From an uncultured Paracoccaceae bacterium (GTDB taxonomy: Bacteria; Pseudomonadota; Alphaproteobacteria; Rhodobacterales; Rhodobacteraceae), in assembly GCA_947311485.1 (NCBI GenBank), contig CAMZLM010000016.1:1-43138 (forward strand): DNA of 43,138 bases. Direction: 5' to 3'. The notes beneath the pieces were generated by a model. It was not told the DNA's origin. It worked only from the letters and a program-made list of their open reading frames with translations, and ran no database searches. This document shows positions 26,433-42,965 of this stretch, one piece after another. The translations under genes and the position numbers were made by a program. Each line of letters opens with the position of its first letter. Position 1 is the stretch's first letter.

Positions 26433-27314
26433 TTAGGCGCGGTGCTTGTCGTAGTAAAGGCCCACCACATGTTCTGCTTGGGCAAAGAACAGCCAGCGCG
26501 ATGCAAACAGGCCAACCATATGCAGCACCAAGGCGCTGACAATGGTCAGATAACCGCCGGTCGAGAAGGACAGGATCATCACCGGCAACAGGCCAATGCA
26601 TAGTACCGAAATGATCCGCAGCTTGGCCGCATGTTTACGCCCGATTTCGTACGCGAATTCTTTCAGCAGATAGTTGGTGCCGGAATGAGGCGATTCCAGC
26701 AAGCGTACCTGACCGAGGTTCCCCAGGCCGGTTGCTGTTCCAATGTTGGACCCGGCATTTACAAACGCCTTGTCGCCAATCACCCAATGCAGCATTTGCA
26801 CCAAGGTTGCCAGCGCCAACAACAGTGCAGCCAAGGGCACCTGGCGGGTCAACAGCGCGCCACCTGCAAACATATAGACCAGATACAAGACCGGGGTCAG
26901 CATCTGGTTCCAGCGCGGAATGGTCTTCATCTGACCATAAATCATGGCGGTACAATACACGGTTGCAACGGTCAGAACCGATCCGATTATTCCGATAACC
27001 GGCAGCTTCATGTCCAGAAAAATCAACGCAGCCGCGTAAATGCCAAGGGTGCCCAATGCCAATACAGCCAGCACGCCTTCGCGGCTGAGCCAGGAGGAGC
27101 GCCACTGCTTAAAGGCTTTCATCGCCCGCTGTGGGTTGCCAAGGTGGAATGTTGAAGACAACAAGCCGCCAACAGCCAATGCGTATCCGATGAAGAAATA
27201 GCCAAATGCCGTCCATCCGGAGATTTCCGGTACGCCAAGGCCGAGGAAAAACAACATACCAAAGCCAAGGCCGGAGAGTGTTGTAAACAGAATTACTGAA
27301 GGTGCCGGGTGCAT
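26433..27314 (-). CDS. soeC: Sulfite dehydrogenase membrane anchor subunit SoeC (DmsC/NrfD-like)
   Basis: A 293-residue polytopic protein with about eight transmembrane segments, of the DmsC family: LFTTLSGLGFGMLFFLGLG, AFGYFFIGYALAVGGLLSSTFHLGNPQRAMKAF and YLVYMFAGGALL, plus the conserved WSSWLSREG-like element here as WRSSWLSREG. It anchors the molybdoenzyme to the cytoplasmic face of the inner membrane and passes electrons to quinone. It overlaps soeB by one base (TAATG) and is followed by the operon terminator. The Soe rather than Dms assignment comes from the catalytic subunit, which lacks a Tat signal. Confidence 0.85.
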   Translation of the reverse strand: MHPAPSVILFTTLSGLGFGMLFFLGLGVPEISGWTAFGYFFIGYALAVGGLLSSTFHLGNPQRAMKAFKQWRSSWLSREGVLAVLALGTLGIYAAALIFLDMKLPVIGIIGSVLTVATVYCTAMIYGQMKTIPRWNQMLTPVLYLVYMFAGGALLTRQVPLAALLLALATLVQMLHWVIGDKAFVNAGSNIGTATGLGNLGQVRLLESPHSGTNYLLKEFAYEIGRKHAAKLRIISVLCIGLLPVMILSFSTGGYLTIVSALVLHMVGLFASRWLFFAQAEHVVGLYYDKHRA

Positions 27315-28063
27315 TAGATTGCCTCCAGTGCTTTGTCGAGCCAGCCCATAAAGCCGCCCTTGTTTTCAGGAACCGGCGCCAGAAGTGGTGCCAGAATATC
27401 GATGTCGCCGGAAATATCGGCCTTGGGGCGCGGTGGCAGATACCGGTTCACCGGCTTGGTTGCCAGTTCCGGCATCAATTCCATGCCGCCGCGTTCACGG
27501 GTCATCACCGACACATTGCTGTCCGGATCGGCAAAGTCGCCAAAATGGCGGGCCTTGGCCGGGCAGGTCCGTACGCAGGATGGTTCGCGGTCGATTTCGG
27601 GAATGTTCTCGTTGTAGATGCGATCCACACAGAGGGTACATTTCTTCATCACACCCTCGGCGGCATCCATTTCGCGCGCGCCATAAGGACAGGCCCAGGC
27701 GCACAGCCCACAGCCGATACAGTCGCTCTCGTTGACCAGAACAATGCCGTCTTCGACACGTTTATAGCTGGCACCGGTTGGGCAAACCGTGACGCAAGGT
27801 GCGTCTTCACAATGCAGGCAGGATTTGGGGAAATGTACGGTTTGTGCATTACAACCCGCGGATTTTACCTCGAATGTGTGCACGCGGTTCAGAAAAGTAC
27901 CAACCGGGTTTTCCCCGTAGGCATCCATATCCGACAAAGGTGCCCCGTAATTCGAGGTGTTCCATTCCTTGCAGGAGATCACACAAGCATGACAGCCCAC
28001 GCAGATATCCAGATCGATCACCAGACCCAATTTCTTGGCGGTAGAGGCAGGTAGAGTGGTCAT
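27314..28063 (-). CDS. soeB: Sulfite dehydrogenase iron-sulfur subunit SoeB
   Basis: A 249-residue four-cluster ferredoxin of the DmsB/PsrB type. Four cysteine groups are visible: CVGCHACVISCKEW, CLHCEDAPCVTVCPTGA, CIGCGLCAWACPYG, and CTLCVDRI with CVRTCPAKA. It relays electrons from the molybdenum subunit SoeA to SoeC. There is no signal peptide, in keeping with a cytoplasm-facing complex. Start and stop overlap both neighbours by a single base (TAATG on each side), indicating tight translational coupling of the three subunits. Confidence 0.9.
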   Translation of the reverse strand: MTTLPASTAKKLGLVIDLDICVGCHACVISCKEWNTSNYGAPLSDMDAYGENPVGTFLNRVHTFEVKSAGCNAQTVHFPKSCLHCEDAPCVTVCPTGASYKRVEDGIVLVNESDCIGCGLCAWACPYGAREMDAAEGVMKKCTLCVDRIYNENIPEIDREPSCVRTCPAKARHFGDFADPDSNVSVMTRERGGMELMPELATKPVNRYLPPRPKADISGDIDILAPLLAPVPENKGGFMGWLDKALEAI

Positions 28064-30891
28064 TAAAAGTCCTCCCCGTAAGTGATGTCTTGTGGACCGC
28101 GGCCCACGGGTGATTTTTGTGCCGGTGTATCGGGTTGTGCAATTTCGTCCCCGGCGGCGGCTTTTTCGATTTTAACCCGCAGGTCAAACCATGCGGCCTG
28201 TCCCGTGACAGGATCGGAGTTGGCCCACCGCATACCGTCGCCTTTGGCTGGCAGCAATTCGTGGATCAGATGGTTCAGCAAGAAACCTTTGTTGGCTTCC
28301 GGTGCTTTTTCATCCAGTGCCCAGGCCCCTTTGCGTTTGCCGATCGCATTCCAGGTCCAGATGGTTTTGCCGTTGAGCGCATCCATCTTGACCACGGGGA
28401 CTTTGATCTTGCCGTGAACCGATGTGACCCAAGCCCAGTCGCCTTCTTCAAAGCCATGCTCGTTCCAGATTTCGCCGGAAACATACATCGGGTTGGTACC
28501 ATGGATCTGGCGCAGCCAGGCATTTTGCGTGCCCCAGGAGTGATACATCGCCATGGGGCGTTGGGTCAGGGCGTGGATCGGATATTCGTCCGTGTCCACA
28601 ATCGTTTGTTCAAACGGTTCATACCAGATTGGCAGCGGATCCATGACCATATCCAGCTGTGCGCGCAGGTGCTCGGGGGGCTGGTGCGCGCCATGTCCCT
28701 GTGCGGCAAGCCGGAATTTCTGAACAGTTTCGCTATAAACTTCAAACACATAGGGTTGAATGCTGTCGAAAATACCGCGCTCCACGGCCCAATCCTGATA
28801 GGCGGCATTCCAGGGTTTGAAATAGGTGCCATCCTCGGGGATATGGTCAATCCAGAAGCCACCGTTGTCGATATAATCCTGAATCTGGTTCGGGTTTGGT
28901 TCCCCGCGACCCTTGCCTTTTTTGTCCTTGCCACGGAAACCGGCCAGCGGGCCAACGCCGGGACGACGTTCGTGGTTCTGGATGTAATCGGCGTAATCTT
29001 CGTACACGGCGCTGCCGTCTTCGTTGGTCATGCCGGGCAGGCCCAGACGCACGCCCAACTGGATCAGTGCGGTTTGGAATCCGCGCACATCACGGTCCGG
29101 TTCCACAACCGGCCAACGGATGCTGTCGGCAATGGCATCGGCCTCGCAGATCGGACGGTCCAGCAAAGAGATACAGTCGTGCCGTTCCAGATAGGTGGTG
29201 TCGGGCAGGATCAGGTCGGCAAATGCGACCATTTCCGAAGAATAGGCATCGGAGTAGATCAGCTTGGGGATCACATATTCGCCGTTTTCATCCTTGTCCG
29301 TCAGCATTTTCATGACTTCGGTGGTATTCATCGACGAATTCCACGACATATTGGCCATATACATGAACAAAACGTCAATTTTATAGGGATCACCCGCATA
29401 AGCGTTGGAAATCACCATATGCATCAGTCCGTGACTGGACATGGGATTTTCCCAAGTGAAAGCCTTGTCGATACGGGCGGCAGTGCCGTCCTCCTTGAGC
29501 AACAAATCCTCGGGGCCACGTACAAAACCCAGATGTGGGCCGTTTAGGGGCGCGCCGGCAGTTACGCCCATATGCGGTTTGGGGTGTGCGCTTACCGGTT
29601 TCGGATAAGGCGGTTTAAAACGGAAGCCCCCCGGACATTCAACGGAGCCGAGCAAAATTTGCAGCACATGCAGCGCGCGGCAGGTCTGAAAGCCGTTGGA
29701 GTGCGCAGAAATCCCGCGCATGGCGTGGAAGGCAACCGGACGGCCAATCATTTTGTCGTGCTTTTCGCCTTTCCAGTCGGTCCAGGGCTGATCAATGGTG
29801 ATCTCTTCCTTGAACGCGGTATGGGCCAGCTGTGCCGCGATGGCTTTGATCCGTTCCGCCGAAATTCCGCAACGGTCTGCGGCTTTCTCCGGAGCGTATT
29901 CATCGGACATGTATTTTTCTGCCATCACAAGGAAGGCCGGCTTGTAGGTTTTGCCGTCGACCTCGTAACCATTGGCCATGTCCGCCATGATGCCCGGTGT
30001 GTCAAAGGCAACGAGCTTGCCTGTGGCACGGTCCAGAACTTGTGGTTTGTCGTCGGCATCGCGCAGGAACAGGCCGAATTCGGCGCTGCCCTCAACCGTA
30101 TTCACCAGTTGCGGCAGGTTGGTATAGCGGCGCAGATAATCCACATCGACCTTGCCCGCCTTGAGCAGTTCATGGATCATCGACAGGATGAACAACCCGT
30201 CCGTACCGGGGGTGATGCCAACCCATTCATCGGCAATCGCGTTATAGCCGGAGCGGATCGGGTTGACGCCGATGATCTTGCCGCCGTTTGCCTTGACTTT
30301 GGACAGGCCGGTTTTGATCGGGTTGGAATCGTGATCTTCTGCAACGCCAAAGATCATAAATAATTTGGTGCGGTCCCAATCGGGCGCGCCAAATTCCCAG
30401 AATGCGCCGCCCATGGTGTAAATACCTGCGGCTGCCATGTTAACGGAACAGAACCCGCCATGTGCCGCATAGTTTGGCGTGCCGAAATTCTGTGCCCACC
30501 AGCTGGTCATGGATTGGGATTGGTCGCGACCAGTGAAAAAAGCCAGCTTTTCAGGGTTGTTTTCGCGAACCGGCTTGAGCCAGCTGACTGCGATGTCAAA
30601 GGCTTCGTCCCAGCTGATTTCCTCGAACTCGCCAGAGCCACGCTCGCCGACCCGTTTCATCGGGGACTTCAGGCGGGCAGGGGAATAATGCTGCATGATC
30701 CCGGCGGAACCTTTGGCGCAGAGCACGCCTTTGTTCACTGGATGATCGCGGTTTCCCTCGATGTATTTTACTTTGCCATCCTGCATGTGCACATTGATGC
30801 CGCAACGGCAGGCACACATGTAACAGGTGGTTTTACGGATCTCGTCCGATACCTTCGCAGAGGTATCTAGATCGGGCTGGTGCACAGTCAT
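28063..30891 (-). CDS. soeA: Sulfite dehydrogenase molybdopterin subunit SoeA
   Basis: A 942-residue molybdopterin-guanine-dinucleotide oxidoreductase of the complex iron-sulfur molybdoenzyme family. The N-terminal [4Fe-4S] site is Cys23, Cys26, Cys30 and Cys58; the probable Mo ligand is Cys148 in HGGFCSVN; the C-terminal part is the molydopterin dinucleotide-binding domain (IHALTQRPMAMYHSWG). There is no twin-arginine signal, which separates it from periplasmic DmsA/PsrA and fits SoeA, which oxidises sulfite to sulfate in the cytoplasm. The adjacent phosphotransacetylase and MocR regulator fit sulfonate catabolism, which releases sulfite. Substrate specificity is inferred; another sulfur substrate is possible. 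Confidence 0.85.
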   Translation of the reverse strand: MTVHQPDLDTSAKVSDEIRKTTCYMCACRCGINVHMQDGKVKYIEGNRDHPVNKGVLCAKGSAGIMQHYSPARLKSPMKRVGERGSGEFEEISWDEAFDIAVSWLKPVRENNPEKLAFFTGRDQSQSMTSWWAQNFGTPNYAAHGGFCSVNMAAAGIYTMGGAFWEFGAPDWDRTKLFMIFGVAEDHDSNPIKTGLSKVKANGGKIIGVNPIRSGYNAIADEWVGITPGTDGLFILSMIHELLKAGKVDVDYLRRYTNLPQLVNTVEGSAEFGLFLRDADDKPQVLDRATGKLVAFDTPGIMADMANGYEVDGKTYKPAFLVMAEKYMSDEYAPEKAADRCGISAERIKAIAAQLAHTAFKEEITIDQPWTDWKGEKHDKMIGRPVAFHAMRGISAHSNGFQTCRALHVLQILLGSVECPGGFRFKPPYPKPVSAHPKPHMGVTAGAPLNGPHLGFVRGPEDLLLKEDGTAARIDKAFTWENPMSSHGLMHMVISNAYAGDPYKIDVLFMYMANMSWNSSMNTTEVMKMLTDKDENGEYVIPKLIYSDAYSSEMVAFADLILPDTTYLERHDCISLLDRPICEADAIADSIRWPVVEPDRDVRGFQTALIQLGVRLGLPGMTNEDGSAVYEDYADYIQNHERRPGVGPLAGFRGKDKKGKGRGEPNPNQIQDYIDNGGFWIDHIPEDGTYFKPWNAAYQDWAVERGIFDSIQPYVFEVYSETVQKFRLAAQGHGAHQPPEHLRAQLDMVMDPLPIWYEPFEQTIVDTDEYPIHALTQRPMAMYHSWGTQNAWLRQIHGTNPMYVSGEIWNEHGFEEGDWAWVTSVHGKIKVPVVKMDALNGKTIWTWNAIGKRKGAWALDEKAPEANKGFLLNHLIHELLPAKGDGMRWANSDPVTGQAAWFDLRVKIEKAAAGDEIAQPDTPAQKSPVGRGPQDITYGEDF

Positions 30892-36192: not shown

Positions 36193-36331
36193 GAACTACT
36201 CCGGTATCGACCGAGCCGCTGACGGACGGTAAAAGGTAGACTTATAAGAAAGGATTCTCACAGTGAACGCGAAATGTGTTAATGAAACCTTTCCAGAATA
36301 TAAAAAAATTATGAAAAATTGGGGTCAATGC

Positions 36332-36610
36332 ATGAAACAAGAGCAAGCAGAGGTCATCGGGCTACAGGCCTTGGTGTGGTTGATCGAAAATGAAGAATTG
36401 CGCCCGGTGTTCCTTGGGGCCAGTGGTGCAACGGTGGACGATCTGAAGACCCGGGCCGGAGACAGCGATTTTCTGGCGTCTGTGCTGGATTTCATCCTGA
36501 TGGATGATGCCCATGTCACCGGTTTTTGTGATGCCAACAATTTGTCATATGACACCCCGATGCTGGCACTGCACAGCTTGCCAGGACAAGAGGTGCTTCA
36601 TTGGACCTAA
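36332..36610 (+). CDS. DUF3572 family protein
   Basis: A 92-residue protein with the DUF3572 pattern: AEVIGLQALVWLIENEELRPVFLGASGATVDDLKTRAGDSDFLASVLDFILMDDAHVTGFCD. The function is unknown; in alphaproteobacteria it often neighbours divK/pleD genes, as here. The ATG at 36332 with GGGGT upstream gives the usual family length. A GTG at 36263 with AAAGGA upstream would add 23 residues and cannot be excluded. Its stop overlaps the convergent dehalogenase gene. Confidence 0.85.
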   Translation: MKQEQAEVIGLQALVWLIENEELRPVFLGASGATVDDLKTRAGDSDFLASVLDFILMDDAHVTGFCDANNLSYDTPMLALHSLPGQEVLHWT

Positions 36611-39600
36611 AGGTCGATTTCCAATATCCCATCCGGTTCTGCGGCGCGGGATTGGCACAGGATTATGGTGGTTTCACGTTGTTTGTTGGATAAAACAAAA
36701 TCGCGGTGTTCAACGGCACCGGAGACCAGCCCGCATTGGCAGACCCCGCAAATACCGTTGGCACATTTGACCGTCACGGGGATGCCCGCCTTTGCCAGAA
36801 CATCGGTGGCCGTTTCTGTGGCCGACACCGGAAATTCACGGCCCGATTTTTTGAGCCGCAAGGTAAAGGGATGGTTTTCGTATTCCGGTGTTTCCGGCGC
36901 GTCGAAATATTCCATATGGCGGGAATTTTCGCCAAAACCGTTTTCCGCAGCCGTATCCAGAACGGCAGCCATATAGGCCGCTGGCCCGCAGGTGTAAACG
37001 TGGCTACCGGATTGATAGTGTAATATTTCTTTAAGGTTTGCCCGGTTCCCCTGATCCGAATAGTGCAACTGGACATGCTTTGCCCAAGGCATGGTTTTCA
37101 ACACTGCGTCAAAGGCGGCCTCGCTTGCGCGTGAGGCAGAGTAATGCAGTTCGAAATCCGCGCCGCTGGCGTGTAATGTGTGGGCCATGGCAATCATCGG
37201 TGTAATGCCGATCCCGCCCCCCATCAGATAGGTTTTTTGTGCCTTTTCTTGTAACGGAAAATGGTTTGTCGGGGTGCTGACAAACACCATGCGCCCGGGT
37301 TCAAAAATACTGTGCAGCAGGCTTGATCCTCCGCGCCCTTTGTCCTCTCGCAGTACGGCGATTTCATATTTTGAGCGGTCCATCGGGTCAGAGCACAAAG
37401 AATAGGGGCGCAAATATTCCGGAGCAACCACCACATCCAGATGTGCGCCGGCGGTAAAGGCCGGCAGGTCGGATCCGTCAGGGGCAACAAAACTGTATTT
37501 GGATACGGTTGTGCTCAGGCGTTCAACCCGATCCAGTTTTAGACGCATTACAGGGACATTGGCCGCCGTATCGATTTCATAGCGATGTTCCGGCGGGATG
37601 CCTTTTGCGCGCCGGGCCTTGTGTTCCGTGGCTGAAATCATGGCGTCATAGGCCTCGATTGCGGCGTTGCGGTCCATCGGATAGGGCCATGGATAGGGCG
37701 GAGGTAAAAGGTTGGCGGTATAGGCCGCAAGGGTTTGGTCGCTATGCTTTAGCACCAGATCCTTTTGCAACTGGCGTGTGTTAACCGGTTGTTGCGGTTG
37801 TTTATAGGGGCCTTCGTCCCGCATCTCCAGATCCCACCACCATTTCTTTTGCGGATTGATCGTGCCATTGTTCAGCGCATCATCCAGACGGGTTAACCAT
37901 TTGGCTGCCTTGGGGAAATGCATACCAGCCCAACGAAACGGGGCTTCTTTGAATAGCCCTTCAAGGTTCCACGGACAGGTTTTCATGCAGCGGCCACACA
38001 TGGCACCGCCTTCATTGGTGATGCGGTAATTGGTGCATTTCTGGCTGTCGGGTTTCCAGATTTCATAACCGTTGAACATACGCTTGGGGCCGGCGGTAAT
38101 GGCACCGGATGGACATTCACGGGCACATTTATTGCAGCTGTCACAAAAACGCTGCAAGCCAAAATCAATCGGTTTGTCGTGCTCCATTGGCATGTTGGTC
38201 GTCACGGTGCCCGATTTCAATCGCGGCCCCAAGAACGGGTTGAGGATCACGTCCCCGATACGGCTGATTTCCCCCAATCCGGCCAGCAATGTCAGCGGCG
38301 GCTGGATCACGTCGCTGCCCATAACCGTATGCACTTTGGCGGAATACCCCATGTTGCGAATTTGCTGCGCCAACACACCGCCAAGCAAGGAAAATCGCAA
38401 ATATGCCCGCATGGATTGGGCACAGGCAATCCAGTCGTCACCGCTTGCGCCCTCCATGGTTTCATGGCCCTGATCAATGACAATGGAAATGGCGTTTTTA
38501 TGATAGGGTATCAGCTCTTCGCCATTGGGATCGTGGGAATAATAACACCAGTCCGGACAGCGTGACAGCCCCACGGCATCGCAGCCGAGGAAATAGGCTG
38601 TGGCCTTGAGGTTGGCGGCATTTCGCACGGGATCACTGGCCGACGGGGCGACTTGGGGGGCAACAGGCCCTTCCTGCAGGGGGACAAATGCTGCAAGAGC
38701 ATAGCGAAAAGCATAGGCTGAAGCCGATTTTCTGACATAATTACCATTTTTTGCCGCTTCCTGAACCTTGGGGCCAAGATCGCCGAAAAGCGAGCGGGCA
38801 AACATGTCCGAGCGTTTTGGCACGCGCGCAATGTGCGCTTCGTCGAGGTAATTTGTTGTGGTTTCAACCCGTTTCAGGGTTTCAAAAGGAAAGGGGCCAT
38901 TCACAAAGAACCGTTTTGCAAACGGATCATGGTTACGCCTGTTTCTGGCATTGGTTCCCAAGCCCAACTGATAGGAAACAAGGGGTACAGCCATGCTGGC
39001 CAAGGGCTGATCCGGCGTGATTTCCATATTCGTCGTCACCACAGACAGGCCGAAACGGTCGCCTAGCAGCGGGTTCTTGACGGTAGAACCTTGGAGTATG
39101 GCCAGACCTGCTGCTACCGCCATCATTGGCAAATGGACATCGCTGGCCGATCCGCTGTGGGCGCGCGCGCTATAGCCGAGGGACCGCAGGTAGCTCGCCA
39201 AAACGCTGGCGGTTTCTGCCCCGCGCAGGGCGGCGCGCTGGGCTTGAGCATGTTGGATCCAGTCGGTTCCGGGTTCATCTGTGGATGGGTCACGGGGGTA
39301 TTCGTACAAAAATACCAGTGCATGGCTGTGCTTATGACAGCTAGACAAGGGTTCTTTCATGGCTTTTTTGATTGCAGCCAGTACAAAGTCGAGGCCCGAA
39401 GCCATGGATTTGGACTGTCCGGCATTCAGGCGTTTTTCCAGTCGGTGAACATCGGGGTTTTGAACGGGGTTTGATAGGCGCGCTGCAGATGGAATTTCGC
39501 AAACACCAACCATTGATGCATCGCAATAATAGCCAAATGCCTTGAGATGGGCTGCCCGCTCTTGGGGGCATTCTGGAATATCGGCAATTTCAGTCTTGAC

Positions 39601-39807
39601 CGCGCCATCGCGAATAGCATCCATCATTGTCTGATATTCACCCATCGCGTTCACGATGGATAAAGGCGCGTCCTGATTTTTGAAGGGCACCGGCTCAAAG
39701 GGTGAAAATGCATCCCAATTTGGGAACCCGCTTGTTCGGTGTAGTTTTTCCAGAGGATAAGGCCCGAGGTCTACGGGGCGCTGCGCATATGAAAACAATT
39801 TACCCAT
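36607..39807 (-). CDS. Self-sufficient cytoplasmic reductive dehalogenase-like protein with fused flavin/[2Fe-2S] reductase (BhbA/NpRdhA class)
   Basis: A 1066-residue fusion. Residues 1-660 are a RdhA-type cobalamin unit with two [4Fe-4S] sites: Cys555/558/561/565 (CDSCNKCARECP) and Cys591/604/607/611 (CGRCMKTCP). Residues 745-960 are an FMN/NAD reductase (RPYSL at 800-804; GGGIGITP at 863-870). Residues 980-1066 are a plant-type [2Fe-2S] ferredoxin (Cys1015/1020/1023/1051). No Tat signal is present, unlike respiratory RdhA, so it should be soluble and take electrons from NAD(P)H to remove halogen from an organohalide, probably an aromatic one. Residues 89-270 and 401-547 are clear duplicates; the first lacks FeS sites and looks vestigial. 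Tyr422/423, Lys491 and Arg553 are candidate catalytic residues (unaligned). Confidence 0.88.
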   Translation of the reverse strand: MGKLFSYAQRPVDLGPYPLEKLHRTSGFPNWDAFSPFEPVPFKNQDAPLSIVNAMGEYQTMMDAIRDGAVKTEIADIPECPQERAAHLKAFGYYCDASMVGVCEIPSAARLSNPVQNPDVHRLEKRLNAGQSKSMASGLDFVLAAIKKAMKEPLSSCHKHSHALVFLYEYPRDPSTDEPGTDWIQHAQAQRAALRGAETASVLASYLRSLGYSARAHSGSASDVHLPMMAVAAGLAILQGSTVKNPLLGDRFGLSVVTTNMEITPDQPLASMAVPLVSYQLGLGTNARNRRNHDPFAKRFFVNGPFPFETLKRVETTTNYLDEAHIARVPKRSDMFARSLFGDLGPKVQEAAKNGNYVRKSASAYAFRYALAAFVPLQEGPVAPQVAPSASDPVRNAANLKATAYFLGCDAVGLSRCPDWCYYSHDPNGEELIPYHKNAISIVIDQGHETMEGASGDDWIACAQSMRAYLRFSLLGGVLAQQIRNMGYSAKVHTVMGSDVIQPPLTLLAGLGEISRIGDVILNPFLGPRLKSGTVTTNMPMEHDKPIDFGLQRFCDSCNKCARECPSGAITAGPKRMFNGYEIWKPDSQKCTNYRITNEGGAMCGRCMKTCPWNLEGLFKEAPFRWAGMHFPKAAKWLTRLDDALNNGTINPQKKWWWDLEMRDEGPYKQPQQPVNTRQLQKDLVLKHSDQTLAAYTANLLPPPYPWPYPMDRNAAIEAYDAMISATEHKARRAKGIPPEHRYEIDTAANVPVMRLKLDRVERLSTTVSKYSFVAPDGSDLPAFTAGAHLDVVVAPEYLRPYSLCSDPMDRSKYEIAVLREDKGRGGSSLLHSIFEPGRMVFVSTPTNHFPLQEKAQKTYLMGGGIGITPMIAMAHTLHASGADFELHYSASRASEAAFDAVLKTMPWAKHVQLHYSDQGNRANLKEILHYQSGSHVYTCGPAAYMAAVLDTAAENGFGENSRHMEYFDAPETPEYENHPFTLRLKKSGREFPVSATETATDVLAKAGIPVTVKCANGICGVCQCGLVSGAVEHRDFVLSNKQRETTIILCQSRAAEPDGILEIDL

Positions 39808-39809
39808 CG

Positions 39810-40265
39810 TCAGAGGCCGGAAATGGCATTGGTGTCACCAGACAGTAATCTTTCCAGAATTTTAGAAAGCTGGTCAAATTCTTCCTCGGTCAGACGGTTA
39901 CGCAAATTATCCTGCGCAGCCTGTGCCATGGGCATAGAAGCTTCGAGTGTCATTTGTCCGACCGGAGTTAAGTTAATATGGGTTGTCCGCCGGTCTTGGG
40001 TTCCGCTGCTGCGGGCCAAAAATCCTTTTTTCTCCATTTGGCGCAAACTGCGGGAAACAGACGTCCGATTCACCCCGATATACTGCGCTATTTCGCCCGG
40101 GAGGGCGATGTTTCGCGTCCCTACTGACACCAGAATGGCCCACATTTGGCGTGTTAACCCCAAGTTAGTAAGGTGGTTTTCAAAAAATTGCTGGTTTTTT
40201 CGGGCGGCCAGTGTCAAACGGTATCCCGGCCCGGAATGCAAATCGTATGGTTCGTTTTTTGTCAT
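39810..40265 (-). CDS. MarR family regulator of the dehalogenase gene
   Basis: A 151-residue MarR protein: helices LAARKNQQFFENHLTNLGLTRQMWAILVSV, a winged helix (ALPGEIAQYIGVNRTSVSRSLRQMEKKGFLARSSGTQDRRTTHINLT) and a C-terminal dimerisation helix. MarR repressors are typically released from DNA by phenolic or aromatic ligands. It ends 2 bases before the dehalogenase start codon on the same strand, so the two are co-transcribed. A halogenated aromatic or its product is a reasonable inducer (inference). It is divergent from a HAD phosphatase gene. Confidence 0.92.
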   Translation of the reverse strand: MTKNEPYDLHSGPGYRLTLAARKNQQFFENHLTNLGLTRQMWAILVSVGTRNIALPGEIAQYIGVNRTSVSRSLRQMEKKGFLARSSGTQDRRTTHINLTPVGQMTLEASMPMAQAAQDNLRNRLTEEEFDQLSKILERLLSGDTNAISGL

Positions 40266-40280
40266 GGCCAGAAGATGATA

Positions 40281-40307
40281 AATATATGTAACAATGTCAA
40301 CTATATT
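40281..40307. promoter_or_regulatory. AT-rich inverted repeat between the MarR and HAD genes, candidate operator
   Basis: AATATA and TATATT end a 27-base element in the short divergent region, whose centre is GTAACAATGTCAAC. On the minus strand it includes TTGACA (40300-40295), a possible -35 box for the MarR-dehalogenase operon. The symmetry is limited; this is the only plausible MarR site seen there. Confidence 0.35.
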
Positions 40308-40360
40308 CTACCATTTCAAAAGGTGGCGTAACTGACTGTGGTTAAGTGAAAAGGGGAAAA

Positions 40361-41068
40361 ATGGTTATTAAGGGTATTCTCTTTGATAAGGATGGAACTT
40401 TATTCGATTTTGAACGTACATGGGGCACATGGCTGGAGCGGGTGATTTCTGAACTGGCAGCAGGAGATCCGGCGTTGAAACACAGGTTGGCCCATTCCTG
40501 TGGCTATGATCTTGCCAAGCAGCGGTTCGTCGCGGGTTCCTTGATTGTGATTGCAACATCGGAAGAGGTGAACGCTGCATTGGCGGATTGCTTGCCTGAC
40601 TTTACGATTGAAAGAGTGGACGCCGTTGCACGCCACCATTTGGCCGCGCTGCCTTGTGTGCCGGTGTGTAATTTGCGTCAATTATTGCAAGATTTACGGG
40701 AAATGGGGTACGTTCTTGGGGTGGCAACCAATGATTATCTAGAAGGTGCAAATAAACAGTTAACAGACGCAGGCATCAGTGATCTATTTGCGTTCGTTTG
40801 CGGTTCGGATAGCGGGTTTGGCGGCAAGCCCGGCGTTGGAATGATACAGGCATTTTGTGCTGAAACGGGATTGAAATGCGCCGAAGTTGCCGTTGTCGGG
40901 GATAGCATCCACGATTTGGAATCCGGAATTGCAGCGCAGGTCGGCAAACGCATTGGTGTTTTAACAGGGCCGGCAAAACAAAACGAATTAGCTCCGTTTG
41001 CGGATTTAGTGCTAGAGGATATTTCCTTGCTGATAATGACCGATGTTCAGTTGGGTTTTTGCCGATAA
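40361..41068 (+). CDS. HAD family phosphatase (phosphoglycolate phosphatase-like)
   Basis: A 235-residue haloacid-dehalogenase-superfamily protein. Motif I is FDKDGTLFDF (two aspartates, the phosphatase form), motif II is in LGVATND, and motif IV is VAVVGDSIHDLESGIAA, with GFGGKPG as motif III Lys. True L-2-haloacid dehalogenases have a DxYGT first motif, so despite the neighbouring dehalogenase this is predicted to hydrolyse a phosphate ester. The start at 40361 has AAGGGG upstream; a GTG at 40346 is less likely. It is divergent from marR. Confidence 0.88.
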   Translation: MVIKGILFDKDGTLFDFERTWGTWLERVISELAAGDPALKHRLAHSCGYDLAKQRFVAGSLIVIATSEEVNAALADCLPDFTIERVDAVARHHLAALPCVPVCNLRQLLQDLREMGYVLGVATNDYLEGANKQLTDAGISDLFAFVCGSDSGFGGKPGVGMIQAFCAETGLKCAEVAVVGDSIHDLESGIAAQVGKRIGVLTGPAKQNELAPFADLVLEDISLLIMTDVQLGFCR

Positions 41069-41355: not shown

Positions 41356-41949
41356 ATGCACGGGATGTTTAATCGTGGATTGCAGTGTTTTGTGCGTGAT
41401 ATTTACGGGGCAGAGGTGTGGGAAGAAACCTGCTCGCGTGCGGAATTACCCTACTTTAACTTTGAAACGATGCTCCACTATGATGATAGCATCACGTTTC
41501 GTGTTTTACAGACTTTATCAACTGTATTGGGGCGTTCTGTTAACGATTTGCTAGAAGATTTTGGCACCTATGCTGTTTCAGAAGAGCGCTTGGCAATAGT
41601 GCGTCGGCTCTTGCGCTTTGGGGGGGACACTTATGAGGAGTTTTTGCACTCCCTAGAGGATGTGCACGACCGTGCGAAAATGGCCTTGCCGGATTTGGAT
41701 ATGCCGAATCTGCGGCTCACGCCGCATTCCGAAATGAAATTCACATTGCATTACCGGTTCGCCAAGCAGGGATACGGGAGCTTTTTTTTGGGCTTGCTGC
41801 GGGGGATGGCCGATGATTACGGTGCGCTTGTTGTGATTTCACACGAACCGAGCAGGCGGGGAACTCTGGATACGGATCGATTTGGCATTTCGTTGATGCA
41901 ATTCGATTGGGCGGACTCTGATAGTCCAATGTCGCGAGTGCAGCAGTGA
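41356..41949 (+). CDS. H-NOX (haem NO-binding) sensor protein with altered YxSxR motif
   Basis: A 197-residue single-domain H-NOX protein. His104 (in SLEDVHDRAK) is the proximal haem ligand and Pro117 the conserved haem-distorting proline. Spacing relative to Thermoanaerobacter H-NOX (His102, Pro115, Tyr131-Ser133-Arg135) is exactly +2. The YxSxR motif that binds the haem propionates therefore aligns to Tyr133-Phe135-Lys137 (YRFAK), so Ser and Arg are replaced. The downstream FFLGLLRGMA fits the family. It should bind NO (or CO/O2) through haem and control the cyclase encoded next, which starts within its stop codon (TGATG). A GAGGAAGGG ribosome site precedes the start. Confidence 0.88.
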   Translation: MHGMFNRGLQCFVRDIYGAEVWEETCSRAELPYFNFETMLHYDDSITFRVLQTLSTVLGRSVNDLLEDFGTYAVSEERLAIVRRLLRFGGDTYEEFLHSLEDVHDRAKMALPDLDMPNLRLTPHSEMKFTLHYRFAKQGYGSFFLGLLRGMADDYGALVVISHEPSRRGTLDTDRFGISLMQFDWADSDSPMSRVQQ

Positions 41950-42965
41950 TGGAATTATCTGTACAGAAAATAGAAAATTATGGGGCTTCATCCGCGGAAT
42001 TATCGGCTGAAATGCTGGATATTCTATTGCCATTACATGTTTTGGTTGCAAAGCCGGGCCGGATAATTCATGTCGGTCCAACCTTTGCCAAATTGATGAA
42101 TGCAGACAGCCCGGTTGGGCAAGATATTTTCAAATTGTTTGAGTTTCGTCGCCCGGTAGGATTGCGTCGTTGGGAAGGGCTTTGTAAATCCACTGGGTTG
42201 GCTTTAATCGCCCGATTGAAAAACCTCGAAAATCATAACCTCAAAGCAGTCTGTGTGCCTCTCGTGGGGGCTGATAAAATTCTTATTAATTTTTCGTTAG
42301 GGGCAGGAATTCATGAAATTGTGGCCAGCCGGAATTTGAAAATTAGGGATTTTTCCCCCGCAGAATCAACGGGTGAAATGCTCTATATGAAAGAAATCCA
42401 GTCGGTTGTTCTGAGCGCTTCGCGAGATCTGAATAACCGATTGGACGGAGCTAAAACGATGGCGGAAGAGCAAGCTTTTAGCGATTCTTTAACAGGACTG
42501 AATAATCGGCGAGCGTTGTATGGATTTATTTCGCGCCTACAAGACCGGAAGGCGCTGGGGGGATTTGCGATTATGCAGATAGACTTAGATTTCTTCAAAT
42601 CTGTAAACGATACCTATGGCCATGCGGCTGGCGACCATGTGCTTCAAGAGGTTGCTCGAGTTTTACTTTCGGAAACACGCAGCACGGATCTGGTGGCGCG
42701 TGTCGGAGGGGATGAGTTTGTGATCGTTCTTAGTGATTTCGGAACGCAGGAACAACTAAAGGAAGTTGGGTTACGGATTATAGAAGAGGTTGCTAAGCCA
42801 ATCAAATTCGGAGCGCACGAATGCTTGGTTGGGGCCAGTATCGGGGCGGTTATCGTACCGCAGGTGAGTGAAATAAAGGCTGACGATCTCTTGGCCTTGG
42901 CAGATAAGGCCTTGTATCGTTCCAAAAACGCAGGCCGTGGCATGTTCAACTTGGTACAGTGTTGA
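41949..42965 (+). CDS. HNOBA (PAS-like)-GGDEF diguanylate cyclase partnered with H-NOX
   Basis: A 338-residue protein. Residues about 22-135 resemble the HNOBA/H-NOXA PAS domain that binds H-NOX in guanylate cyclases: LDILLPLHVLVAKPGRIIHVGPTFAKLM ... GQDIFKLFEFRRP. A helical linker (about 140-175, LYMKEIQSVVLSASRDLNNRL) leads to a GGDEF domain with DSLTGLNNRRALY, IDLDFFKSVNDTYGHAAGDH, active site GGDEF and an inhibitory RxxD (RSTD) five residues upstream. It should synthesise cyclic di-GMP under control of the H-NOX protein. The ATG at 41949 overlaps the H-NOX stop by one base. Confidence 0.92.
   Translation: MELSVQKIENYGASSAELSAEMLDILLPLHVLVAKPGRIIHVGPTFAKLMNADSPVGQDIFKLFEFRRPVGLRRWEGLCKSTGLALIARLKNLENHNLKAVCVPLVGADKILINFSLGAGIHEIVASRNLKIRDFSPAESTGEMLYMKEIQSVVLSASRDLNNRLDGAKTMAEEQAFSDSLTGLNNRRALYGFISRLQDRKALGGFAIMQIDLDFFKSVNDTYGHAAGDHVLQEVARVLLSETRSTDLVARVGGDEFVIVLSDFGTQEQLKEVGLRIIEEVAKPIKFGAHECLVGASIGAVIVPQVSEIKADDLLALADKALYRSKNAGRGMFNLVQC

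Follow-up and report, generated by a model that had tools for sequence, protein, structure and literature searches.

Gene organization and domain architecture

The window examined here, a stretch of 43,138 nucleotides from an uncultured Paracoccaceae bacterium (contig CAMZLM010000016.1 of assembly GCA_947311485.1), carries on its reverse strand a pair of genes that is, as predicted from its sequence, a well-formed member of a published class of self-sufficient reductive dehalogenases with a dedicated MarR switch. The first gene of the pair, marR (39810-40265), encodes a 151-residue MarR-family regulator (PF01047 winged helix, 42.3 bits against a cut-off of 24.6), while the second, rdhA-PDOR (36607-39807), encodes a 1066-residue protein in which the reductive dehalogenase RdhA is fused to a phthalate dioxygenase reductase (PDOR). 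Both begin with ATG, and the marR stop is separated from the rdhA start by 2 nt according to the open reading frames (ORFs) of the window. An earlier note, made from the DNA letters, had described a MarR-linked dehalogenase with marR ahead of rdhA, and both ORFs lie where it placed them; the Rhodobacteraceae-like host it recognized agrees with the nearest named relatives' loci. Given its family and structure matches, the 1066-codon ORF is far beyond chance.

The reductive dehalogenase model TIGR02486 scores 211.1 bits on the protein, above its cut-off of 160.35, with the best stretch at residues 429-615, and Fer4_7 and Fer2 likewise exceed their Pfam cut-offs. The best relative in the PDB is NpRdhA of Nitratireductor pacificus (4ras/6zxu; E ~1e-151), which aligns in two stretches within residues 3-735. 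The second is phthalate dioxygenase reductase (2pia; E 7.5e-59), covering residues 753-1063. A Foldseek search with an AlphaFold model returned NpRdhA chains as its first 14 rows (E 5e-45 to 4e-43; identity 38-39%; root mean square deviation 12-13 A) and then 2pia. An RdhA-type protein with a fused reductase, as the earlier note had proposed, is thus confirmed, and its statement that a Tat signal is lacking also holds, as no twin-arginine motif is seen by eye at the N-terminus.

Residues 1-394 (38625-39807, minus strand, as for all parts of the protein; boundary approximate) align with the N-terminal half of NpRdhA and form a degenerate RdhA copy, for which the term 'vestigial' is taken from PMC10463259 (this and the other papers given by PMC number are cited from excerpts). 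A second, weak TIGR02486 match falls within this copy (39001-39570, 43.9 bits). Residues 106-147 (39367-39492) are an insertion relative to NpRdhA in the alignment, and may correspond to the insert reported for JtRdhA-type fusions in PMC10463259, a match by description rather than by coordinates. The predicted catalytic cobalamin/2x[4Fe-4S] domain recognized by TIGR02486 occupies residues 395-655 (37843-38625, boundary again approximate). Its catalytic triad (38023-38403) consists of Tyr469 (38403-38401), Lys531 (38217-38215) and Arg595 (38025-38023), equivalent to Y426, K488 and R552 of NpRdhA; F336, S465 and M466 are equivalent to F291, S422 and M423, these six being the active-site residues named for NpRdhA (PMC10463259). 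In an alignment of NpRdhA with 107 fusions (the window and 106 other loci), none of the six varies among the 107 fusions, and the eight cysteines of two [4Fe-4S] motifs (residues 555, 558, 561, 565, 591, 604, 607 and 611; 37975-38145) are kept in all 108 rows. The C-terminal residues 753-1066 (36610-37551), matched by 2pia and Fer2, make up the phthalate-dioxygenase-reductase module for flavin, NAD(P) and [2Fe-2S], with the cluster ligands Cys1015, Cys1020, Cys1023 and Cys1051 present in the alignment.

Two other identities were considered. Epoxyqueuosine reductase (QueG) was rejected, since its model TIGR00276 reaches 27.2 bits against a cut-off of 200, far too low for a grouping with that type of protein. 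A respiratory RdhA is disfavored by the absence of a visible Tat motif and by the adjoining genes, which are a DUF3572 gene and marR, with no gene for an RdhB anchor. Since Tyr469, Lys531 and Arg595 are present and invariant, the dehalogenase assignment stands at the level of sequence.

Distribution and relation to known enzymes

As a class, self-sufficient RdhA-PDOR enzymes are already established, with BhbA and JtRdhA as representatives, and they are common in this bacterial family. The subfamily was defined, and JtRdhA characterized, in PMC10463259, whose tree legend includes an RdhA of Ruegeria pomeroyi, and PMC13101508 describes bhbA homologs as 'widely distributed' across the Roseobacter clade. 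Of the 394 genomes sampled from the host's family, at least 149 list the fusion, and in at least 145 of these the match spans at least 3,000 bases. The suggestion of the earlier note that soluble, NAD(P)H-driven forms are few can therefore not be upheld.

JtRdhA, from the marine bacterium Jhaorihella thermophila (WP_104007082), debrominates and deiodinates phenols with NADPH, both with and without air (PMC10463259). As far as its description allows comparison, it resembles the window protein in being an RdhA-PDOR fusion without a Tat signal, in its key catalytic residues, in its insert relative to NpRdhA and in its marine host; it differs in that the excerpted text of PMC10463259 mentions no MarR. 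BhbA of Comamonas sp. 7D-2 (WP_015585978; L115) is likewise a full-length fusion, with 49.2% identity over 100% of the query, and serves the use of bromoxynil as a carbon source (PMC10463259). Unlike the window gene, the gene for BhbA has no MarR gene found adjoining it and lies in a plasmid cluster with ligA, an extradiol dioxygenase and a tripartite tricarboxylate binding protein, according to an incomplete gene table. NpRdhA (4RAS, 6ZXU) shares the RdhA fold and catalytic residues but has no fused reductase (PMC10463259) and, in our alignment, no counterpart of the 106-147 insertion.

A predicted palindromic operator at the MarR gene start

A MarR gene adjoins rdhA in 46 of 107 loci, and in 46 of 46 it is upstream and on the same strand. 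When 45 such loci were scanned (L003 and L089 being left out), the palindrome TTGACAnTGTCAA was found around the marR start in 37, the window included: 17 exact, 11 with one mismatch and nine with two. Shuffles, which here and below keep base content only, lead one to expect 0.23 loci with two mismatches or fewer. Where MarR is absent, sites of this quality occur at 5 of 32 loci that occupy the insertion site described below and at 0 of 28 loci elsewhere. The predicted operator of the window, the hybrid sequence TTGACATTGTTAC, lies at 40288-40300 on the minus strand, 35 nt before the marR ATG, and overlaps a TATAGT hexamer that by eye resembles a -10 element.

The type of site follows the residue carried by the putative recognition helix. 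Where the position aligned with the Asn of the window's GVNRT is Asp, the site is of the GAC type in 33 of 33 loci (two by a tie), and where it is Ile or Lys, the site is of the TTAACAnnGTTAA (AAC) type in 7 of 7. The two MarRs with Asn, from the window (a tie) and from L006 (AAC type, 2 versus 3 mismatches), both face a site reading TTGACAT(T/G)GTTAC. This set comprises 42 loci after removal of L003, L089, six duplicates and three loci with misplaced starts (L029, L057 and L103); a closer look at L103 revealed a TTGACA-type site. The covariation favors direct binding by MarR, although it does not amount to independent replication, because the second motif came from the Ile clade and may reflect a single event.

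Genome-wide searches covered the host and 19 relatives, of which G394 and G395 appear to duplicate G298 and G103 (identical coordinates). Exact copies of TTGACAnTGTCAA number one or two in 13 of these 20 genomes and are absent from seven, including the host; a reversed-pattern control matches in 2 of 20. Without the duplicates there are 14 exact copies, with ten at marR, three at Bcr/CflA efflux pump gene starts and one (G133) at another gene. In the host genome, an exact TTGACATNGTTAC occurs at marR (40288-40300) and nowhere else. A broader set of MarR targets in the host was rejected, since the 12 TTGACATNGTTAC sites with one mismatch or none, against nine for the reversed control, are background.

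The pump family model gives 226.9 bits against a cut-off of 200.9, and Bcr/CflA homologs were found at 23 places in 20 of 20 genomes. Operator-like sites with at most two mismatches stand at eight of the 23 pump loci, in eight genomes (L166, L167, L168, L171, L172, L175, L176 and L178; three exact, one with one mismatch, four with two), as compared with a shuffle expectation of 0.14. All eight are at -6, -18 or -35 relative to the aligned start, and the other 15 loci have no site. The host's own pump homolog (45% identity) is one of those without a site, its best match having five mismatches. On balance it is probable that this MarR clade acts as the halophenol sensor of aerobic RdhA-PDOR enzymes, recognizing TTGACAnTGTCAA, TTAACAnnGTTAA (Ile/Lys) or the hybrid (Asn) over its own gene start and, in several genera, over a Bcr/CflA pump start, so that debromination and efflux would form a small marine organobromine-response regulon.

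Rdh2R and related MarR regulators of Dehalococcoides are known to control rdh genes (PMC6299228, PMC4635342), which, in contrast to the present case, are respiratory. BhbR2 of Pigmentiphaga is a MarR activator of 3-bromo-4-hydroxybenzoate catabolism (PMC12016517); it differs in controlling a hydroxylase/pca operon, in activating and in its site, TTGATT-N5-AATCAA. A term search of the excerpts of PMC10463259 and PMC13101508 found no mention of a MarR regulator, and no MarR operator for an RdhA-PDOR fusion was found described in the portion of the open-access literature consulted, which is weak evidence of novelty. The kind of enzyme is already known; the new part is how the switch appears to work, namely a predicted operator palindrome at the MarR gene start whose class tracks the recognition-helix residue.

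A different element was observed in relatives that lack MarR, mostly Yoonia and Loktanella, which are closely related to each other. In 13 of their 32 loci (L040, L042, L045, L053, L054, L056, L060, L064, L070, L072, L073, L074 and L078), a TTGACA-N22-TGTCAA dyad lies 3-6 nt before rdhA, with a shuffle mean of 0.005; it was found in one of the 28 other MarR-less loci.

Insertion site and history

The operon lies antiparallel between a DUF3572 gene (36263-36610, plus strand) on the left and a gene for a HAD-family hydrolase (40346-41068, plus strand) on the right, a position that is newly described here. In a set of 149 genomes, DUF3572 is present in 144, and 115 of these have HAD next on the same strand, no more than 1.5 kb away; 73 of the 115 have no listed fusion and 42 have the fusion elsewhere. 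Among the remaining DUF3572 genomes, 18 have no HAD match on the same contig and 11 have larger gaps, of which eight measure 1.5-6 kb in genomes that contain the fusion. The fusion itself is found antiparallel between the two genes in 6 of the 149 genomes, the host included. As DUF3572 and HAD adjoin in 73 genomes without a listed fusion, HAD is the older neighbor. Most likely marR-rdhA was inserted into an old DUF3572-HAD pair, so that HAD did not originate as a partner of rdhA, and it is probably not one in function either.

In the RdhA tree, built with FastTree only and with a long outgroup, the 67 rows at this site all belong to a single clade of 79 rows (support 100), which otherwise holds ten rows whose marR-rdhA lies elsewhere (most of them Leisingera) and two that carry neither mark. 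On the tree the site label requires 5 changes and the MarR label 10, suggesting repeated loss of MarR; some of the apparent losses may be faults of ORF calling.

Further to the right, an H-NOX haem-NO-binding gene (41356-41949) overlaps a gene for an HNOBA-GGDEF diguanylate cyclase (41946-42965), both on the plus strand; 19 of 108 loci have an H-NOX gene in the neighborhood of rdhA. In L006 (5624-7213, minus strand) and relatives, an MTTB (trimethylamine methyltransferase) gene occurs at most 5 kb upstream.

Other relevant genes of the host

The earlier note saw no other dehalogenation genes around. This holds for the window's contig, which has no other match to the dehalogenase model, but not for the genome, since contig C12 of the host (G000) encodes a second reductive dehalogenase (L002:670-1842, plus strand; TIGR02486 166.2 bits, cut-off 160.35). 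This 390-residue protein has no reductase and, by eye, no Tat motif, and directly upstream of it lies an AraC/FtrA-like regulator (L002:56-652, plus strand) that scores below its model cut-off. No operator was found at this second gene, the best match having five mismatches. The protein is 75% identical to one of Roseobacter sp. MED193 that matches Ros_A3X954, a tested 2,6-dibromophenol debrominase (PMC13101508); the iron-sulfur motifs of the MED193 protein start at residues 283 and 337, as that paper gives for Ros_A3X954. Like the host's second enzyme and unlike the window protein, Ros_A3X954 stands alone, with no reductase module. The type occurs in 25 of the 149 genomes, and 16 of the 25 also list the fusion, compared with 55 of 149 overall (Fisher p = 0.003, uncorrected for kinship).

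CobN, PobA and PcaH of the host all exceed their cut-offs, which makes both B12 synthesis and the use of 4-hydroxybenzoate plausible. The pobA and pcaH genes share one contig, where the neighbor of pcaH is a PcaG-like gene that scores 110 bits, short of the PcaH cut-off. The 'stand-alone' module of the earlier note holds only with a qualification: the host also has a second dehalogenase, pobA and pcaH, and feeding carbon catabolism is therefore at least as likely as pure detoxification. Elsewhere in the window is a three-gene molybdopterin oxidoreductase operon (26433-30891, minus strand; catalytic, Fe-S and DmsC-like anchor subunits), whose catalytic subunit scores far below the cut-off of every named NCBIfam type shown.

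Proposed mechanism and alternative explanations

We give a probability of about 0.8 to the interpretation of marR-rdhA as a catabolic reductive dehalogenase operon of the BhbA/JtRdhA class under MarR control, encoding an ortho-halophenol debrominase/deiodinase. This interpretation rests on the gene structure, the family, the conserved residues, the operators of relatives together with the helix covariation, the insertion site, and cobN, pobA and pcaH. By analogy with the family's biochemistry, from which the reaction, substrate class, cofactor loading and oxygen tolerance are all drawn, the window enzyme probably removes bromine or iodine from natural phenols. NAD(P)H would reduce the flavin of the C-terminal reductase by hydride transfer, and single electrons would then pass through the [2Fe-2S] cluster and the two [4Fe-4S] clusters to base-off cobalamin. 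The cobalamin would remove an ortho halogen, most likely Br or I, from a phenol that carries a para substituent (3,5-dibromo-4-hydroxybenzoate, for example), with Tyr469 as the presumptive proton donor aided by Lys531 and Arg595. MarR is predicted to be a repressor and the substrate its ligand: a dimer on the palindrome at its own promoter would keep the operon off until a halophenol is bound. The phenolic product could enter the pobA/pca route of the host.

Several observations weigh against this interpretation. The alignment covers NpRdhA and the 107 fusions but not JtRdhA itself. The comparison with NpRdhA that the earlier note recommended bears out the catalytic residues, but the structural model is of low quality where the [4Fe-4S] motifs lie (pLDDT <50 at residues 550-632, and in other stretches), and the cobalamin pocket is predicted only. 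Eight of the 45 marR-bearing loci have no TTGACAnTGTCAA site with fewer than three mismatches, and L029, L057 and L089 have a MarR yet show no site on inspection. The operator of the window is itself weak, with two mismatches, and 1.86 such hits are expected by chance in 43 kb; because the match is weak on its own, it is position and the relatives that carry it. Independent covariation events are few, the Ile form being one clade from which the AAC motif was derived. Finally, among the window's ORFs the operon has neither a transporter gene nor one for aromatic catabolism next to it, and pobA/pca are on a different contig.

An enzyme that serves detoxification only would make algal or sponge bromophenols less toxic, alongside a co-induced efflux pump in some relatives, and its product would not be used for growth. 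The lack of an adjoining catabolic gene would suit such a role, as would the operator-like sites (two mismatches or fewer) at Bcr/CflA starts in 8 of 20 genomes. The role is possible but doubtful: the host has both pobA and pcaH, its pump homolog has no site, and the BhbA of Comamonas serves growth on bromoxynil (PMC10463259). That the pair is a mobile module of recent acquisition is quite unlikely. Eight plasmid records carry the fusion at 80% coverage or more, and Leisingera and a few others have marR-rdhA at another site; nevertheless, the 67 tree rows at the present site, from many genera, share one supported clade, and recent acquisition was rejected on that ground.

Functional partnership with HAD, and with MTTB in relatives, for instance in demethylating halo-anisoles before dehalogenation, has in its favor that 45 of the 74 relatives with sufficient flanking sequence have a divergent HAD gene within 1 kb, 35 of these 45 having MTTB within 5 kb. 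We consider it very unlikely, and HAD was rejected as a dehalogenation partner, given that the DUF3572-HAD pair is the rule with or without the fusion (115 of 144 genomes, 73 of them without) and that no MTTB was found beside HAD among the window's ORFs. It is also highly improbable that the RdhA-PDOR fold reduces something other than an organohalide, such as another ortho-substituted phenol or a cofactor-like molecule. The tested enzymes that could be placed, BhbA and NpRdhA, do fall outside the window's clade, but all 107 fusions retain the six active-site residues named for NpRdhA and JtRdhA, and the tested relatives of the class in the excerpts of PMC10463259 dehalogenate.

Implications

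Bromophenols are abundant in marine systems (PMC13101508). With an operator predicted, the signal that would induce the operon becomes testable with reporter strains. The Rhodobacteraceae are a largely aerobic family, and if at least 149 of 394 of its sampled genomes indeed contain the fusion, debromination in oxic waters may be common rather than a specialty of anaerobes.

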